A stretch of 21,711 nt of DNA, from positions 1 to 21,711 of the forward strand of contig JAHFJF010000001.1 of assembly GCA_023245975.1 (NCBI GenBank), written 5' to 3'. The notes beneath the pieces are model-generated. The model did not search any database, was not told where the DNA came from, and saw only the letters and a program-made list of their open reading frames with translations. Below, in pieces: positions 398 through 12,717 of the stretch. Each line of letters begins with the position of its first letter. Position 1 is the first letter of the stretch. Both the position numbers and the translations under genes were made by a program. This DNA comes from an archaeon (GTDB taxonomy: Archaea > Nanobdellota > Nanobdellia > SCGC-AAA011-G17 > GW2011-AR17).

Positions 398-1147
398 ATG
401 CACCTCAAGCCAGAACAGATTGACGCATTCTACAAAATAGGATATTTTACGCAAGAGGATGTCTTTTCCAAAGAAGAGGTTAAGGAAATTAGCATGGCAA
501 TTGGACGCCTGCAAAAAATTGCTGAAAGCTTGGAAGGTAAAGTGATGCATAATGGCAGCCAATTTGTAGTAACTGACCACCAAATACGCAGGGTTGTATG
601 GTGCGGTGCTGCAGAACCAATATTGCTGCATTATGGGCAAGATAAGAGATTAACATCAATTGCCAGCGAAATCCTTGGTAGCAGGCAAATGAACCAATTA
701 ATCAACCAAATCCATTTCAAGCTGCCAAATGATGGAGTAATCTATCCGTTCCATCAAGACAGCAGGCATCGCCAATACGGGACAGAATTCTGGAATGATG
801 TAAATGGAAAGGGAAGCTATGTCCAGATAGTTACTGCAATAGATAAAGTGACAGAAGATAATGGCCCAATGCTTTTCATACCTGGGAGCTGCAAATATGG
901 GCATTTAGGATTGCCTTACGATGAAAACCAACAAACAGTTTCTTCTTATGTAGATATTAAAAAGGCTGTGCCAGTTTTAATGAAACCAGGAAGCATTGCT
1001 GCATTTGGTCCATATACTATTCATGGCAGTTTGCCAAATACATCAGAAAAGCCAAGAAGGGCATTCATAAATGGTTTTGCATATCCTGGAGCAAACAAGG
1101 CCGTATATCCTGGTAAAGGTTCTGGAGCATTAATTTCTTTAGAATAA
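398..1147 (+). CDS. Phytanoyl-CoA dioxygenase (PhyH) family 2OG-Fe(II) oxygenase
   Basis: A 249-residue protein of normal length for the PhyH family of non-heme iron, 2-oxoglutarate-dependent oxygenases. The metal triad is visible: H119 and D121 (FHQD), then H209 (TIHGSLPNTS). R220, eleven residues after the distal histidine, is the expected 2-oxoglutarate carboxylate ligand. The segment DNGPMLFIPGSCKYGHL (about 154-170) is the usual PhyH strand-turn before the distal half. The substrate cannot be read from sequence; PhyH proteins act on lipids, small metabolites and halogenation substrates, so the name is a family label only. The gene is probably leaderless, with an AT-rich TATA block about 25 bases upstream. 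Its TAA is three bases from the 3' end of the converging tRNA-Thr gene. The enzyme needs O2, so the host meets oxygen at least at times. Confidence 0.85.
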   Translation: MHLKPEQIDAFYKIGYFTQEDVFSKEEVKEISMAIGRLQKIAESLEGKVMHNGSQFVVTDHQIRRVVWCGAAEPILLHYGQDKRLTSIASEILGSRQMNQLINQIHFKLPNDGVIYPFHQDSRHRQYGTEFWNDVNGKGSYVQIVTAIDKVTEDNGPMLFIPGSCKYGHLGLPYDENQQTVSSYVDIKKAVPVLMKPGSIAAFGPYTIHGSLPNTSEKPRRAFINGFAYPGANKAVYPGKGSGALISLE

Positions 1148-4850: not shown

Positions 4851-6542
4851 ATGGAATTGTCTTTATTGAGCCAGATTGGTTTAATCATCGTAGCAGCAAC
4901 AATTTTAGCAATTTTGGCATCAAAAACAAGGCAGCCGTTAATTTTAGCATATTTCCTTGCAGGCATTTTAATCGGGCCAGGAGTCCTGGGATATATTCAA
5001 GACCCAAAGCAATTGGAAGTACTATCTGAATTCGGCATTGCATTACTATTATTCATAATAGGCATGGAATTGGATGTATCAAGTTTCAAGGGGACAGGGG
5101 CATTATCTTCATTGATAGGTTTATTCCAGGTTGCATTTGGCATCGCACTTGGTTTCTTCATTTCAAGCTATTTCGGATTAACGCTAGTGGCTTCAGCAGT
5201 GATAGGATTAATTGCATCTTTATCCAGCACAATGATAGTGGCAAAAATGCTGAAAGACAAATTAGAATTGGATTCATTGCATGGGGAATTAGTATTAGGA
5301 ATCTTGATAGTTCAGGATGTATTGGCAATAATAGCCTTGTCATTGCTTACAATCCATGGAAATTTTACTTTAATGTCACTTTTCCCAGTTGTCTGGAAAG
5401 GGTTATTGCTTACATTGATTGGGATTATTCTGGCCAAGTTTGTCCTTCCATCATTTTTAGATGAGGCAACAAAGTCTACTGAATTATTATTCATCGGCTC
5501 ATTGACTATACTTTTCTCATTTGCAGCAATAGCAGCATATTTAGATTATTCAATTGCTATCGGTGCATTCATCGCCGGCATATCATTATCAAACACTCCA
5601 TTCATACACGAAATTTCAGGCAGGATTAGACCATTGAAAGATTTTTTCTTGACAATCTTCTTCGTTGTCATCGGCATAAACGTGGTCTTTTCTGACACTA
5701 GTTGGAGATTATTTTTGCTGTTATTATTTTTGGCGATGATGTTAAAGCCAATAGTAACATTCACGATAATGAAAATATTCTCTTACAGCAACAGGACTGC
5801 ATTTCTTTCTGGCACAGCGATCGCCCAAGTCAGCGAATTCTCGCTGGTAATTGCAGCAATAGCAATGCTTAACGGCATCCTTACTCCAAGGCAGTTCTCA
5901 GCAGTTACACTTTCAGCCATAGTTTCAATGACATTGTCTTCTTATGCAATTAAATATAACTCAGATATTTTTAATAAAATTGAAGGGATACTTTCCTCAT
6001 TAGATAGGCTAGGCGGCAAGGAAATAAGGGAATACAGGAATCTAAAAAAAGGAATAAGCGGGCACATAGTAGTTTTCGGCATGCACCGCATCGGCGAAAA
6101 AGTAGTAGATTCATTGACAGAAAATAAGAGAAAAATTCTTGTTGTCGATTACAGGCCTGAGAAGATAAAGGCATTGATTAAGAAGAAGATACAATGCATC
6201 TACAGTGATATCACTAACCCTTCTGTTTATGAGGAATTAAATCTCAAAAAAGCAAAGGCAGTAATATCAACTATAAGGAACTTCGAAGGGAATCTTCTAT
6301 TGATAAAAAGGGCAAGGAGGATTAACAAGACTATATTGATACTCATAGTTGCAAATTCCAATGAAGAAGCTATCAAATTATATGATAATGGCGCTGATTA
6401 CGTTGTAATTCCACTATCTGTTTCCGGAGAAAAGCTTTCAAATTATATTACGCACTTAAACCCTGAGCAAGTAAGAGCTTGGGGAAAGAAATATTATTCT
6501 GAGATTAAGTCAATAAAGCCTAATAATTATATCGAGGTTTAG
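4851..6542 (+). CDS. CPA2-family monovalent cation/H+ antiporter with TrkA-N (RCK) domain
   Basis: A 563-residue membrane antiporter exchanging K+ or Na+ for protons (KefB/KefC-like architecture). The first ~380 residues are about 12 membrane segments and carry family marks: RQPLILAYFLAGILIGPG near residue 27, LSEFGIALLLFIIGMELD near 58, and the Gln-Asp pair Q155-D156 (VQDVLA), typical of KefB/C-type exchangers. A cytoplasmic TrkA-N/RCK domain follows at about 403-520: HIVVFGMHRIGEKVV is the nucleotide-binding turn and KILVVDYRPEKI carries the ribose-binding acid. The turn reads G-M-H-R-I-G where G-x-G-x-x-G is usual, so the second glycine is missing and nucleotide affinity may differ. The gene stands alone behind a TATA element. 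Likely role: pH or ion homeostasis; the ion cannot be told. Confidence 0.88.
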   Translation: MELSLLSQIGLIIVAATILAILASKTRQPLILAYFLAGILIGPGVLGYIQDPKQLEVLSEFGIALLLFIIGMELDVSSFKGTGALSSLIGLFQVAFGIALGFFISSYFGLTLVASAVIGLIASLSSTMIVAKMLKDKLELDSLHGELVLGILIVQDVLAIIALSLLTIHGNFTLMSLFPVVWKGLLLTLIGIILAKFVLPSFLDEATKSTELLFIGSLTILFSFAAIAAYLDYSIAIGAFIAGISLSNTPFIHEISGRIRPLKDFFLTIFFVVIGINVVFSDTSWRLFLLLLFLAMMLKPIVTFTIMKIFSYSNRTAFLSGTAIAQVSEFSLVIAAIAMLNGILTPRQFSAVTLSAIVSMTLSSYAIKYNSDIFNKIEGILSSLDRLGGKEIREYRNLKKGISGHIVVFGMHRIGEKVVDSLTENKRKILVVDYRPEKIKALIKKKIQCIYSDITNPSVYEELNLKKAKAVISTIRNFEGNLLLIKRARRINKTILILIVANSNEEAIKLYDNGADYVVIPLSVSGEKLSNYITHLNPEQVRAWGKKYYSEIKSIKPNNYIEV

Positions 6543-6616
6543 GCTGCTGGAATTTTCACAACTTTCGATGGATTCAGTGATACTTACGGGATTTTCAAAT
6601 AAAATCAGATTTTTAT

Positions 6617-7138
6617 TTGGATAGCTTTAAGAATCTTATAGGAATATTTGCTAAGATGTATAACTTAAAGAAAATAAAAGGAACTTTCAAAGGGATAATT
6701 GGAGAATGTTTATTTAAATCTACATCTAATTGGGTTTTTCTTACTAGATTCCATAATAGAAAATTCTTCTTTAATGCTTATCAGCAATTTCTTACTAAAG
6801 AACAAATCACTTTTCTAGATAATAATTGGTATTCTCTTGATGCCATAGAATGTTCATTCAAAGAAAGAAAAATTACCATTTACGAAATAAAAACTAAAAA
6901 CAAATATGCTTTCGATTTAGGATATAAGCCGAAAGCATCAGCATCAACAATAATTATATATGAAAAAGCACTAACACTTGGTTTTGTTGTTAAATCTGCA
7001 GAAGTAATTCTTTATGAAAACTGGAATTTCTGTGTTGAAATTAAAAATTATTCTAAAAATAATTATTGCATTGACAAGCCAAAGAAATATGATAAAGCTG
7101 TAATCCAGAATCCGGGCGGCATTATTAGTGAAAAATAG
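6617..7138 (+). CDS. Orphan protein with a PD-(D/E)XK nuclease-like motif
   Basis: I recognise no family with certainty. From TTG 6617 the protein has 173 residues; ATG 6656 (160 residues) is an alternative start and neither has a Shine-Dalgarno site. A pattern like the restriction-endonuclease-fold core is visible: GIIGECLF (E30), then D75 (SLDAIEC) and, after a charged turn, E90-I-K92 (ITIYEIKTKN). This spacing, D followed about 15 residues later by a beta strand ending E-x-K, is typical of PD-(D/E)XK enzymes, with the earlier glutamate as in resolvase-like members. No Cys/His zinc sites or membrane segments are seen. Codons are visibly A/T-richer than in the neighbouring antiporter gene. 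The last nine residues (NPGGIISEK) and stop lie inside a repeat shared with the tRNA-Gln region. Recent acquisition beside tRNA genes is possible but unproven. Confidence 0.6.
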   Translation: MDSFKNLIGIFAKMYNLKKIKGTFKGIIGECLFKSTSNWVFLTRFHNRKFFFNAYQQFLTKEQITFLDNNWYSLDAIECSFKERKITIYEIKTKNKYAFDLGYKPKASASTIIIYEKALTLGFVVKSAEVILYENWNFCVEIKNYSKNNYCIDKPKKYDKAVIQNPGGIISEK

Positions 7139-7192
7139 ATTATTCGCTATTATAAAAGGAATAATAGCCTCGCCCGGATTTGAACCGAGGTC
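7109..7192. repeat. Direct repeat copy A (gene tail, tRNA trailer and tRNA-Gln 3' half)
   Basis: An 84-base segment that recurs at 7314-7397 with three mismatches and a constant offset of 205 bases. It covers the last ten codons of the orphan gene, the intergenic trailer and the T-arm/acceptor 3' part of tRNA-Gln(CTG). The mismatches are at 7131, 7145 and 7170. Confidence 0.93.
7146..7168. repeat. Hairpin at the 3' end of tRNA-Gln(CTG)
   Basis: GCTATTAT, a seven-base loop AAAAGGA, then ATAATAGC: a perfect eight-base-pair stem. Its right arm includes the discriminator and first acceptor positions of tRNA-Gln(CTG), so in the precursor it would compete with the acceptor stem. It could also be a bidirectional 3'-end signal between the converging genes. 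Confidence 0.7.
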
Positions 7193-7237
7193 CTTGCCTC
7201 CAGAGGGCAAGATGATTGGCCACTACACTACGAGGCT
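7165..7237 (-). tRNA. tRNA-Gln (anticodon CTG)
   Basis: A 73-base cloverleaf: acceptor AGCCTCG/CGAGGCT with A1-U72 and discriminator A, as is usual for archaeal tRNA-Gln; D-arm GTGTAG...TCAT; anticodon stem TTGCC/GGCAA with loop CTCTGGA, so anticodon CTG; T-loop TTCAAAT on stem CTCGG/CCGGG. CCA is not encoded. A TATA-like CCTTTAAATA lies about 30-38 bases upstream on the minus strand. It is paralogous to the tRNA-Gln(TTG) next to it and differs by a compensated acceptor pair (U5-A68 here, C5-G68 there). Confidence 0.93.
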
Positions 7238-7265
7238 ATTACAATCATCTCGATAAGCCAATTTT

Positions 7266-7313: not shown

Positions 7314-7384
7314 AATCCGGGCGGCATTATTAGTTAAAAATAGATTATTGGCTATTATAAAAGGAATAATAGCCCCGCCCGGAT
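7314..7384. repeat. Inverted repeat: partial reversed copy of the tRNA-Gln 3' end
   Basis: AATCCGGGCGG at 7314-7324 is the exact reverse complement of 7374-7384, which is the T-stem/acceptor part of tRNA-Gln(TTG). ATTATT at 7326-7331 pairs with AATAAT at 7365-7370 after a small internal loop. The same arrangement, ten pairs instead of eleven, exists in copy A (7109-7118 against 7170-7179). Confidence 0.85.
7350..7374. repeat. Hairpin at the 3' end of tRNA-Gln(TTG)
   Basis: GGCTATTAT, loop AAAAGGA, ATAATAGCC: a perfect nine-base-pair stem. The right arm enters the tRNA by five bases (7370-7374), covering the discriminator and four acceptor positions. Confidence 0.75.
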
Positions 7385-7442
7385 TTGAACCGAGGTCACC
7401 GGCTCCAAAGGCCGGTATGATTGGCCGCTACACCACGGGGCT
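7370..7442 (-). tRNA. tRNA-Gln (anticodon TTG)
   Basis: A 73-base cloverleaf: acceptor AGCCCCG/CGGGGCT with A1-U72 and discriminator A; anticodon stem CCGGC/GCCGG with loop CTTTGGA, so anticodon TTG; the T-arm is identical to that of the neighbouring tRNA-Gln(CTG). CCA is not encoded and there is no intron. Together the two genes read both glutamine codons. Both inverted tRNA-3'-end copies nearby match this gene best, suggesting that it is the older of the pair. Confidence 0.94.
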
Positions 7443-7489: not shown

Positions 7490-8272
7490 TTAAGCCTTTC
7501 TTAGGACAAAAAATACTTCATCGCCTATAACTATCCTCTCATATTTCATCCCATTTATCAGCTTCAGGAACCAAGATAACCTCTTCTCTGAAATAAGTTT
7601 TCCCTTCCCAAGTGTTCTCAGTGGAAAGCTGGCAACAATCCATTTGCATTTCAATTTAGATAATAATTCAGCAGTAACATTCCATCTAATAGATTCCAAA
7701 GTATCAATTGCCTTAAACAAGAAACAAATATCTGCCTGCGGCAGCTTATCCATTTCCTCTGATTTAGTTATATCACCAAATAATGTTTCCCCACTAATTC
7801 TCATCTTATCAAAATATTTCTGTAGGAATAAAGCATCATCTTTAGACAATTCATATGCAAAATATTTTGCCTGAATGTTCATAAAGGGATATGACAAAGG
7901 ATTTAGCCCGGATGCTATATCAAGTATTGAGCCAGGATTTCCTGTTATCGCAAATATTGAAGCATAGACTTGGTTATAATAAGGTATTCTTTCGGCTGTT
8001 GAGATGTGCAATTTCAATATTTTTCTGTGACCCTCCAAATCGTTTAATCCCGCTAATGAAGAAAGCAGTTTATCGCGTTTATCAAAGTTTTTAGATAAAA
8101 AAGCACCATATACTTCTCTCAAAAAAGCCCTGGTTTTTTTAACTATAATCTCTTCATCTTTTGAGATATCTAGCTGATTCTCTTTGGCTATTTTTCTTAA
8201 TGCGTCTTCAACGAAAGAATCATCTAAGTTCCTAAATTCCTTTTTCTTCTTTATCTCAAAAACTAGGTCCAT
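7490..8272 (-). CDS. 16S rRNA methyltransferase of the ArmA/RmtB/FmrO family
   Basis: A 260-residue SAM-dependent methyltransferase resembling the enzymes that methylate N7 of G1405 (E. coli numbering) in helix 44 of 16S rRNA and give high-level aminoglycoside resistance. Visible family landmarks: the N-terminal helical region (FRNLDDSFVEDALRKIA, about 13-29, like ArmA 'YENLDSDIVEKVVSIS'); ILKLHISTAERIPYYNQVY (about 85-103, like 'LLKIHSSTNER'); the SAM loop SILDIASGLNPLSYP (115-129, like 'SILDFGCGFNPLA'); DICFLFKAIDTLE (181-193); and WIVASFPLRTLGKGK (211-225, like 'FVISFPIKSLSGKEKG'). I chose ATG 8272 because the protein then starts where ArmA does; it overlaps the KH gene by 17 bases. It is last in a RIO1-KH-methyltransferase run, so a housekeeping role in small-subunit maturation is my inference. 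Confidence 0.82.
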   Translation of the reverse strand: MDLVFEIKKKKEFRNLDDSFVEDALRKIAKENQLDISKDEEIIVKKTRAFLREVYGAFLSKNFDKRDKLLSSLAGLNDLEGHRKILKLHISTAERIPYYNQVYASIFAITGNPGSILDIASGLNPLSYPFMNIQAKYFAYELSKDDALFLQKYFDKMRISGETLFGDITKSEEMDKLPQADICFLFKAIDTLESIRWNVTAELLSKLKCKWIVASFPLRTLGKGKLISEKRLSWFLKLINGMKYERIVIGDEVFFVLRKA

Positions 8273-8816
8273 GATTTTCAAATACCCTTCTGTGCATTTC
8301 CCTTCTTTTGTTCTCAAGCCACTTGTATACAGTTCCATGCGGTGAGCCGGACAATAATTGCTCTATTGCCCTTCTCGCCATTGAGGCATGCTCTATTTCA
8401 CCGATTATGCCGATAGTCTTCCCATATACAGATATGTTTGTCTCTGTCATATCTTCTATCATCCTTCTAGCCTTTCCGGCAGAACCTATTACTCTCCCTT
8501 TCAGCCTTTCAAACTTCTTCTGGGACTTTCCTGAATAGTCATTTATGTCTAGTATCTCCATTATGTTATTCTCATTGAAGAGCTGGAACGCTGTTTCAGG
8601 TGCAAAGCCCCTGCCGATTGCGCTGATGATATTTTTTGTCTCGTACAAAGTTACAGAATCTTCCCCAATTAAAGCAACATCTCCAGTCTTGGAATCAATA
8701 TCTAGTTTCAAGTTTGCTTTTCCTTCTATATATTTCTTAATTTCTCCCTTCTTCCCAATTAAGGCGCCTACCCTATCCTTGGGTATCTTCATTTCCTGCT
8801 GAAATTCTTTTTCCAT
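8256..8816 (-). CDS. Dim2/Pno1-like KH-domain protein (small-subunit biogenesis)
   Basis: Archaeal relative of eukaryotic Dim2/Pno1, which binds the 3' end region of pre-16S/18S rRNA during 40S maturation. Two KH domains are visible: the first with IPKDRVGALIGKKGEIK (GxxG at about 21-24) and the second with LKGRVIGSAGKARRMIE (about 106-121). The C-terminal GSPHGTVYKWLENKRRE (about 157-173) is a strong Dim2 signature. From ATG 8816 the protein has 186 residues; ATG 8792, overlapping the RIO1 stop as ATGA, is an equally simple start giving 178 residues. I prefer 8816 because residues before 'IPKDR' resemble the N-termini of homologues as I remember them and a GAGG lies four bases upstream. It overlaps its neighbours on both sides. 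Confidence 0.92.
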   Translation of the reverse strand: MEKEFQQEMKIPKDRVGALIGKKGEIKKYIEGKANLKLDIDSKTGDVALIGEDSVTLYETKNIISAIGRGFAPETAFQLFNENNIMEILDINDYSGKSQKKFERLKGRVIGSAGKARRMIEDMTETNISVYGKTIGIIGEIEHASMARRAIEQLLSGSPHGTVYKWLENKRREMHRRVFENHGPSF

Positions 8817-9520
8817 TCTTCCTCGAAATCTATTTTCAATCCGATTTTCTTGAAATAGGTGCATATCACATTCATATCCCTTCTCAGCATCTGTTCGACA
8901 TTCGGATAAGCCAATGTTACAGCATGTGACAGGTCTATTATCACAGGCTTTCCGTTATGGTTTAGCACATTGAATGCCGATAGGTCTGCATGCACCAGTT
9001 TCGCTTCTTTAACGAGCTTTTTTAGATTGCTTATAAGCATTTCGTAGAAGATTTCAGGATCTTCAATATGGCTTTTGTTTAGTTGGGGGGCTGCCTCATC
9101 ATCCCCTATGAACTCCATTACAAGTATGTTCTTGTATACCGCATATGGCGTGGGAACCACTACCCCGACTTCCCTTGCTTTCAATAGGTTCCTGTACTCC
9201 TTTTTTGCCCAAGCGTAAATTACTGACATCTTGTTTCTTTTCATGCCAATAAACCTTGAGTCTGGAGCCATATATTCATACATTTTCTTAAAATTTGAGG
9301 AAACCCTATAGATTTTAATGGCTCTCTTGCCTGAATTGGATTCTGCTGCGAATACATTCGACTCTTTTCCTATTTTTATGGGGCCAACTACCTTAGTTAT
9401 TATGCCTTGGGATATCAATCTGAAAAGGCCTCGTTCTGTAGAATCATCGAATACGCCCTTATAGGCTTCAAGGCCTTCCTTTCTCAATATCCCACGTTCT
9501 TTGTCCTTCTTTTGGCTCAT
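8789..9520 (-). CDS. rio1: RIO1-type serine kinase/ATPase
   Basis: RIO kinases are atypical kinases that act as ATPases in late small-subunit maturation. The order of motifs fits RIO1: nucleotide loop GPIKIGKESNVFAA (46-59), invariant lysine in AIKIY (K69), the RIO1-specific insert with an SRFIGMKRNKMSVIYAWAKKEYRNL block (about 88-112), hinge VMEFIGD (134-140), catalytic loop LVHADLSAFNVL (175-186, D179) and metal-binding IIDLSHAV (194-201, D196). The 243 residues are a normal archaeal length. It is directly followed by the Dim2-like KH gene, a partner in eukaryotic 40S maturation. A TATA-like TTTTTAAACT lies 21-30 bases upstream of the ATG, so this gene probably starts its own transcript. 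Confidence 0.95.
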   Translation of the reverse strand: MSQKKDKERGILRKEGLEAYKGVFDDSTERGLFRLISQGIITKVVGPIKIGKESNVFAAESNSGKRAIKIYRVSSNFKKMYEYMAPDSRFIGMKRNKMSVIYAWAKKEYRNLLKAREVGVVVPTPYAVYKNILVMEFIGDDEAAPQLNKSHIEDPEIFYEMLISNLKKLVKEAKLVHADLSAFNVLNHNGKPVIIDLSHAVTLAYPNVEQMLRRDMNVICTYFKKIGLKIDFEEEWKKNFSRK

Positions 9521-9540: not shown

Positions 9541-9550
9541 TAGTTTAAAA
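9541..9550 (-). promoter_or_regulatory. TATA-like element for the RIO1-KH-methyltransferase run
   Basis: Minus-strand TTTTTAAACT, 21-30 bases before the RIO1 ATG, in the only gap (52 bases) between the ferredoxin gene and RIO1. Confidence 0.45.
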
Positions 9551-9572
9551 AGCATTTGGTTTGGCGGCCGGA

Positions 9573-11714: not shown

Positions 11715-12059
11715 TCAGAACTCATCTGCAGCTACGGTTTCTTTTATTACGCCCCTTCTCTTCATCCATGCTACCTGCGATGGCTTATACTTGAATATTA
11801 CATCTCCCTTTTCATCCCCGCCCAATTCCCAAGGCTCAATTAACAAGAAATCACCTTCAGCAACCCACAGTTTCCTTTTCATTCTTCCAGGAATCCTGCA
11901 GATTCGTGTCTTGCCATCAAAGCATTTAACTCTCATTCTTGAGGCGCCTAATCTTGTTTCCAGAATACCTATTATTTCCTTCCCTCTTGGGATTTTTACT
12001 CTTTGTATTTCTTCCTGCTCTTTCTGCTGCTTATCAAATTCTTCTTGCTTTCTGCCCAT
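11715..12059 (-). CDS. eif1A: Translation initiation factor aIF1A
   Basis: A 114-residue archaeal eIF1A, an OB-fold protein that occupies the A site of the small subunit during initiation. Landmarks: the charged N-terminal helix (residues 1-20), RVKIPRGKEIIGILETRLGASRMRVKCFDGKTRICRIPGRMKRKLWV (about 20-66, the OB-fold core with 'GxxRxRVxCxDGxxRxxRIPGxxxxxxWV') and GDFLLIEPW (69-77), followed by the short helical tail. Its length and motifs are normal. A TATA element 22-31 bases upstream and no Shine-Dalgarno site suggest a leaderless single gene or the head of the long minus-strand run leading to RIO1. Confidence 0.97.
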   Translation of the reverse strand: MGRKQEEFDKQQKEQEEIQRVKIPRGKEIIGILETRLGASRMRVKCFDGKTRICRIPGRMKRKLWVAEGDFLLIEPWELGGDEKGDVIFKYKPSQVAWMKRRGVIKETVAADEF

Positions 12060-12098: not shown

Positions 12099-12431
12099 TC
12101 AGTTTTCCTCTTGAGTTTTCGGTGTGAGCCTAAAGAACACTGTGGCCCTGTAAACCAGCCTCTGGCTCATCCTGTCCCTTGTGAACAATTCCCTGCTTTC
12201 CTTAAGCTCTCCTTTGAAAGATCTATTCAGTCTCTTGCCCAATTCCCTTACGAACTTCTGCGAGCTGAAATAGATGTCAATTCCATCTCCAACTTCAACA
12301 ATTCTTGAAATGAAAACCTTGCCGTCTTTTTTAATCTGGTTGTTTATGAATCTCATAACTTCTTCATCATAAGGCCTTAATTGTAATGAGCCTTCATAAT
12401 ACCTATCACCTTGATATACTATTTTTGCCAT
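12099..12431 (-). CDS. Minimal NMD3-like protein (lacks zinc-binding N-terminus)
   Basis: A 110-residue protein resembling the conserved middle/C-terminal region of archaeal NMD3: RYYEGSLQLRP (about 10-20), IVEVGDGIDIYFSSQKFVRELGKRLNRSF (about 44-72) and ELKESRELFTRDRMSQRLVYRATVFFRL (about 75-102). Eukaryotic NMD3 carries the 60S subunit out of the nucleus; archaeal versions are thought to act in large-subunit biogenesis. Normal archaeal NMD3 begins with a four-CxxC zinc module; this protein has no cysteine at all. I chose ATG 12431, two bases after the DUF424 stop codon, over ATG 12449, because 'KIVYQGDRYYEGSLQLR' is near the expected domain start. It is the last gene of the aIF2-beta operon. 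Confidence 0.72.
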   Translation of the reverse strand: MAKIVYQGDRYYEGSLQLRPYDEEVMRFINNQIKKDGKVFISRIVEVGDGIDIYFSSQKFVRELGKRLNRSFKGELKESRELFTRDRMSQRLVYRATVFFRLTPKTQEEN

Positions 12432-12432
12432 C

Positions 12433-12717
12433 TCATGCCTCAAATACAAATGCGAATGGAATTTTATTTACATATCTTACATTGTCCTTGTCAACTATTC
12501 CCAACTTCACCAATAAATCCACAGATTCTTTCCCGACTGCATTTATGTTCCTTGCATTCTTTGCGAGCTCTTCAATCATTTCCTTTTTGTAGTCATCTCC
12601 TTTATAGAAAGTTTCAGAAATTTTCAGTTCCATGTTTTCATCGGAAAGAATTTTTCCAAGAAGTTCCTTGTCGCATAATGACAATACGCCTTCTTTGTGC
12701 ATTTTTGCTTCAATCAT
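12433..12717 (-). CDS. DUF424 family protein
   Basis: A 94-residue archaeal DUF424 protein: MIEAKMHKEGVLSLCDKELLGK at the start, then GKILSDENMELKISETFYKGD (about 21-41, matching the family's 'GkxlxeGelxLeVsexFYgGe'), AKNARNINAVGKESVDLLVKLGIV (about 52-75) and a closing IPFAFVF strand. The function is unknown; DUF424 genes commonly sit near aIF2-beta and NMD3-type genes in archaea, which suggests a role in translation. I chose ATG 12717 because it overlaps the aIF2-beta stop codon as ATGA, the classical translational-coupling arrangement, and gives the normal family length; ATG 12759 would add 14 unsupported residues. Confidence 0.88.
   Translation of the reverse strand: MIEAKMHKEGVLSLCDKELLGKILSDENMELKISETFYKGDDYKKEMIEELAKNARNINAVGKESVDLLVKLGIVDKDNVRYVNKIPFAFVFEA

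Follow-up and report, generated by a model that had tools for sequence, protein, structure and literature searches.

An FmrO/Rmt-family 16S rRNA methyltransferase gene overlapping dim2 in the Nanobdellota, with a likely housekeeping role

What does a member of a methyltransferase family known for aminoglycoside resistance do in an archaeon whose copy lies among ribosome-maturation genes? This question is raised by a gene on the minus strand of contig JAHFJF010000001.1 (assembly GCA_023245975.1, Nanobdellota), of which we analysed positions 1 to 21,711; this whole stretch of 21,711 nucleotides is called the window. The characterised relatives of its product target N7 of G1405 in 16S rRNA, and m7G1405 confers a very high level of resistance against 4,6-substituted aminoglycosides (PMC12340973). 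Judged from sequence comparison, the window gene probably, if far from certainly, encodes a housekeeping enzyme dependent on S-adenosylmethionine (SAM) that belongs to the FmrO/Rmt (m7G1405) family, would methylate the decoding site of the 30S subunit at a late stage and would be produced together with Dim2 and RIO1. The observations behind this proposal are the family itself, the predicted fold, the conserved residues, a wide and mostly single-copy occurrence, a recurrent linkage to dim2/rio1 or pelota, and tgt/rsmI as neighbours in bacteria.

The gene truly belongs to the FmrO family and is widely inherited. Its product matched Pfam PF07091 (FmrO) with 89.8 bits (cut-off 27, E 2.5e-25), so that the profile search named beforehand as a check on the family assignment of an earlier, sequence-only reading of this DNA gave a match well above the cut-off. 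The predicted structure matched over its full length, with the N-terminal helical domain and the Rossmann methyltransferase core found in the m7G1405 (Rmt/Arm) enzymes, and the ArmA-type landmarks on which that reading had relied are present in the order claimed, with HISTAER at residue 89, SILDIASGLNPL at 115 and ASFPLRTLGKGK at 214. In the alignment, R95, D118, K187 and E252, which we take to be SAM-site and catalytic residues of the m7G1405 family, are identical in 70/70 archaeal, 17/17 bacterial and 6/6 resistance rows. An additional Asp, which does not vary among bacterial and resistance rows, is replaced by Glu141 in the window enzyme and is Asp in 57% of the archaeal rows.

The three overlapping genes described in the sequence-only reading are real minus-strand genes in the order given there; the start of the methyltransferase needs a correction. 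Its homologues start at M23 of the long open reading frame (ORF) and the database protein P0001 has 260 residues, so that the gene most likely spans 7490-8272 and does not extend to 8338; with this start it overlaps dim2 by 17 nucleotides, and dim2 overlaps rio1 by 28 nucleotides, provided that the Met at 8816 is the start of dim2. In profile searches, Dim2 matched TIGR03665/arCOG04150 with 210.5 bits (cut-off 114.2), and RIO1 matched the RIO domain PF01163 with 170.9 bits (cut-off 22, 3e-50). The minus-strand genes further upstream include aIF1A, an NMD3-type ORF, DUF424 and MCM and are mostly core information genes.

Among archaea, the gene is common in the phylum but not universal, and mostly single-copy. 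PF07091 matched 30 of 40 near genomes, counting the window's own; within the window's family it matched 16 of 18. The 14 well-known control genomes, four of them archaeal, gave no match. In a sample of 279 genomes of the phylum, 135 matched, 133 of them once and two of them twice. A profile made from 44 archaeal members reached 168 of the 279 at E<=1e-3, of which 140 were accepted (E<1e-15) and 28 with weak matches (E 1e-3 to 1e-7) were not counted as carriers. The expectation of a chromosomal and widespread rather than sporadic gene was thus borne out. A scan of one genome per species (84,980 species) yielded 375 relatives, the best 80 of which comprised 76 archaeal and 4 bacterial loci; the 76 are titled Nanoarchaeota, Woesearchaeota, Pacearchaeota, Nanoarchaeia, Nanoarchaeales, one Parvarchaeota, one 'DPANN group' or plain archaeon. 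No relative was found in the viral collection by a pattern scan, confirmed by tblastn. The presence of the gene in this archaeal group is already in print, as Podar et al. 2013 (PMC3655853) found it in N. equitans and Nst1 and called it a signature of the Nanoarchaeota that is 'shared with Bacteria'. Apart from that paper, none of the titles and abstract openings listed in literature searches on archaeal FmrO/G1405, on a housekeeping or Chloroflexi origin and on RmtC suggests an archaeal or housekeeping member.

Dim2 and RIO1 are late small-subunit maturation factors, and pelota handles stalled ribosomes. For the wider archaeal neighbourhoods we used the 76 loci from the best 80 of 375, which, as the window's nearest relatives, do not represent the phylum evenly. 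The sequence-only reading had placed the methyltransferase in a dim2-rio1 operon. Within the window's family the place behind dim2 holds: of 14 relatives' loci (15 relatives carry the gene), 13 have dim2 in the same orientation no more than 1.1 kb upstream, and in the fourteenth (L004, apparently L025) the distance is 1.24 kb; an extra ORF separates the two genes in some loci. As a general rule adjacency to dim2 is not supported: other families of the same order have dim2 upstream in 1/5 loci, and a survey of whether adjacency to rio1/dim2 is fixed across related archaea gave upstream dim2 in 12 of the 76 loci and upstream pelota in 20, the remaining 44 being weighed below. The pelota gene overlaps the methyltransferase gene by 7-25 nucleotides in 18/19 resolved loci when the first start codons are taken; one pelota representative passes TIGR00111, and the others were assigned by similarity to it. 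IF1A is upstream within 1.5 kb in 6/76 loci and neighbours dim2-fmrO in some relatives. Over 21 taxa, FmrO and Dim2 distances correlated with a Spearman coefficient of 0.42, which none of 5000 permutations reached; this would be expected for co-inherited genes, though the correlation is moderate. In L043, a NOL1/NOP2/Sun RNA m5C methyltransferase gene (5894-6886, minus strand) adjoins fmrO, and a relative of it adjoins fmrO in L070.

The characterised m7G1405 relatives act on assembled 30S subunits. The window enzyme would most likely dock on the 30S subunit once this is nearly finished or mature, and would methylate helix 44 at the decoding site, probably at N7 of G1405; with Dim2 and RIO1 as co-products, this may happen late in small-subunit maturation. 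Action on the assembled subunit would account for the position of the gene next to the late maturation factors Dim2 and RIO1, or next to pelota. A housekeeping role of the archaeal FmrO gene is likely.

Bacterial members likewise recur in RNA-modification surroundings. The gene occurs in 3/3 genomes of a small bacterial class and in 18/100 genomes from the class to which L101 (titled Anaerolineae) belongs; the database proteins P0155 and P0157 carry the label Dictyoglomaceae. We examined the surroundings of the gene in 17 bacterial genomes, namely 13 of these 18, L100 (another Anaerolineales) and all three from the small class, and found tgt near the gene in at least 12/17, rsmI in at least 7/17 and either in at least 14/17; these counts are lower bounds, as most flanks extended for about 1.5 kb. 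Equivalog cut-offs are passed by one representative each of RsmI and Tgt, and the others were assigned by similarity. In the Anaerolineae-type loci L100 (5747-6589) and L101 (8458-9381), a second fmrO gene lies close to the first.

Two trees address the ancestry of the resistance enzymes: a quick one of 114 rows, and one of 80 rows from which P0027 and the gappy rows L065, L071 and L092 were dropped and in which every second archaeal row plus eight chosen ones were kept. The archaeal loci L026, L056, L060 and L075 are absent from both, and many rows of both have an odd amino-acid composition by the program's own check. In the 80-row tree, archaea and bacteria are split by a long branch with 100/100 support, present in 100% of 200 bootstrap trees; in the 114-row tree, a branch with a Shimodaira-Hasegawa-like approximate likelihood ratio test (SH-aLRT) value of 100 separates 40 non-archaeal rows, with P0027, a long-branch protein, placed on the archaeal side. 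All six resistance enzymes compared lie, in the 80-row tree, on the bacterial side among bacterial chromosomal relatives: ArmA, RmtE, RmtB and RmtF form one group (97/91), Sgm (sisomicin-gentamicin resistance methylase, PDB 3lcu/3lcv) groups with Anaerolineae-type rows (99/92), and RmtC is weakly placed near rows of the small class and rows labelled Dictyoglomaceae (67/65). By this placement the resistance enzymes look like branches of the bacterial side, and neither tree supports the archaeal contribution to their ancestry suggested by the sequence-only reading, which had named such a tree as a check. Because the tree is unrooted, it does not fix the direction of an old inter-domain transfer, or inheritance from a common ancestor.

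Several observations weigh against the proposed housekeeping methylation of G1405. Against NCBIfam NF000466, the Rmt G1405-N7 equivalog, the product scored 130.2 bits (8e-38), below the cut-off of 250. The archaeal clade lacks the Gly-Met...Tyr loop, which in the m7G1405 enzymes is presumably near the target base: the loop is present in 6/6 resistance rows and largely in the bacterial ones (Gly 88%, Met 88%, Tyr 94%), whereas in the archaeal rows the Gly column is gapped in 70/70, the Met is retained in 47%, and Arg is the commonest residue (39%) in place of Tyr. The window enzyme has Ile for the Met and Arg for the Tyr. About half of the sampled phylum is without a full FmrO match, as is G001, a genome of the window's family rated 100% complete, so that a lineage can dispense with the gene; and 44 of the 76 archaeal loci have neither dim2 nor pelota upstream, three of the 76 being short of upstream sequence. 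The altered loop and the missed cut-off would suit an enzyme of the same fold and docking mode that, owing to the loop changes, methylates some other nucleotide in the decoding region of archaea. We regard this as unlikely, though worth keeping in mind, since R95, K187 and E252 are invariant, the predicted structural match includes the N-terminal helical domain, and the CCCGTC containing G1405 is present in the carriers G003 and G012 of the window's family, by a pattern that itself required the G. For some rRNA methyltransferases it has been proposed that binding counts for more than methylation, and the linkage to dim2, rio1 and pelota would fit such a role, mainly in 30S assembly or quality control; the invariant SAM-site and catalytic positions in 70 archaeal rows argue that catalysis has been kept, and we consider this role improbable.

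Family membership is what speaks for an aminoglycoside-resistance or self-protection gene like those of actinomycete producers and plasmids. We disfavour this explanation as very improbable: neither a mobile or plasmid setting nor the patchy occurrence of a foreign gene was found, as the gene lies on a chromosomal contig among core information genes, occurs in most genomes of its family and in about half of those sampled from a small-genome archaeal phylum, follows Dim2 in its distances, has no relative in the viral collection scanned, and is separated from the six resistance enzymes by the 100/100 branch. A recent acquisition from bacteria, with no settled role as yet, might be read from the bacterial occurrence of the family and from the guanine-plus-cytosine content of the gene, 33.7% against 40-42% in dim2, rio1, IF1A and MCM. 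TruD of the same window is also low (35.5%), the archaeal rows form one side of the 100/100 branch and the distances follow Dim2; such an acquisition is hardly credible.

With regard to the rRNA, a 16S pattern, CACCGCCCGTCA, was found in 22/141 genomes and had no match in the window's own genome; as it required the G, it shows the presence of the site only. We also asked if FmrO replaces Dim1/KsgA. KsgA matched in 60/279 phylum genomes at E<1e-20 and in 261/279 at E<=1e-3, the latter read as mostly partial matches of other methyltransferases. Excluding the window's genome, both genes occur in 34 genomes, FmrO only in 105, KsgA only in 26 and neither in 113 (Fisher p 0.31); the replacement was rejected, as the two genes are independent across the phylum sample. 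In the relatives G007, G010 and G012, which are 95-99% complete, all KsgA/Dim1 matches are weak and partial, with dim2 present at least in G010 and G012. According to PMC7897474, N. equitans lacks Dim1, as do some further nano-sized archaea.

RsmI, RsmF and RsmH, the bacterial housekeeping methyltransferases of helix 44, belong to protein families other than FmrO/Rmt, and the target of RsmI, C1402 of helix 44, is three bases from G1405. The window enzyme would do a like job at the same rRNA site, and rsmI adjoins some of the bacterial fmrO relatives, but these enzymes modify other nucleotides (C1402, C1407; PMC12406665). The same paper gives C1402, C1407 and U1498 as E. coli A-site housekeeping methylation sites around G1405, without listing G1405 itself, and cites work in which ArmA blocks RsmI at C1402. 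The plasmid-borne m7G1405 methyltransferases ArmA, RmtB, RmtC, RmtE and RmtF have the family, the fold and the invariant R, D, K and E positions in common with the window enzyme and differ in being mobile resistance genes on the bacterial side of the tree. Sgm, to which the actinomycete FmrO and KgmB are related, serves producer self-resistance and has kept the Gly-Met...Tyr loop, unlike the archaeal clade. The rRNA (guanine-1405-N7) methyltransferase homologue of N. equitans and Nst1, which PMC3655853 assigns to the same family and describes as otherwise bacterial, very probably belongs to the same archaeal clade as the window enzyme.

With an inherited, operon-embedded archaeal member and with bacterial members beside rsmI, the family would acquire a housekeeping role which, if true, would suggest a source of the resistance enzymes. 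We find the case evenly balanced for the wider proposal that the small subunits of a large share of the Nanobdellota, and of the tgt/rsmI-linked bacteria, natively carry m7G1405 or another mark close by in helix 44 as a housekeeping modification, the clinical ArmA/Rmt enzymes and the producer enzyme Sgm being mobilised or specialised offshoots from the bacterial side of an old family of ribosome-maturation enzymes rather than inventions of antibiotic producers. The proposal predicts a directly mappable decoding-site modification in small-genome archaea, many of them without a full Dim1/KsgA match.

Table 1 Positions of the methyltransferase gene and associated features in the window.
Feature	Positions	Strand	Remark
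FmrO/Rmt-family 16S rRNA methyltransferase gene, 260 amino acids	7490..8272	-	start = M23 of longer ORF
ORF extension 5' of methyltransferase start, probably untranslated	8273..8338	-	homologue starts at 8272
Dim2/Pno1-like two-KH-domain protein, arCOG04150	8256..8816	-	TIGR03665 and KH domains
RIO1-type kinase	8789..9520	-	PF01163
TATA-like TTTTTAAA, possible archaeal promoter element (candidate)	9544..9551	-	ends 23 nucleotides before rio1 ATG
aIF1A (translation initiation factor) gene, upstream, same minus-strand gene run	11715..12059	-	PF01176

The position of TTTTTAAA relative to rio1 would plausibly fit a leaderless archaeal transcript, with the element as a putative candidate for the one promoter named in the sequence-only reading. 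A sigma-70 scan, which is inapplicable to archaea, found one site where 6.0 were expected. The match of the NMD3-type ORF (12099-12449, minus strand, 116 amino acids) is confined to the C-terminal end of the NMD3 profile (142-243 of 243), and relatives of it and of the adjoining DUF424 ORF are each found in 6 of the best 80 of 375 loci. A PhyH-type dioxygenase gene (398-1147, plus strand) stands beside ORFs read by eye as putative ribosomal protein genes. Directly downstream of the methyltransferase gene, two tRNA-Gln genes, 7164-7238 (ctg) and 7370-7442 (ttg), lie on the minus strand with near-duplicate flanks, which looks like a tandem duplication.
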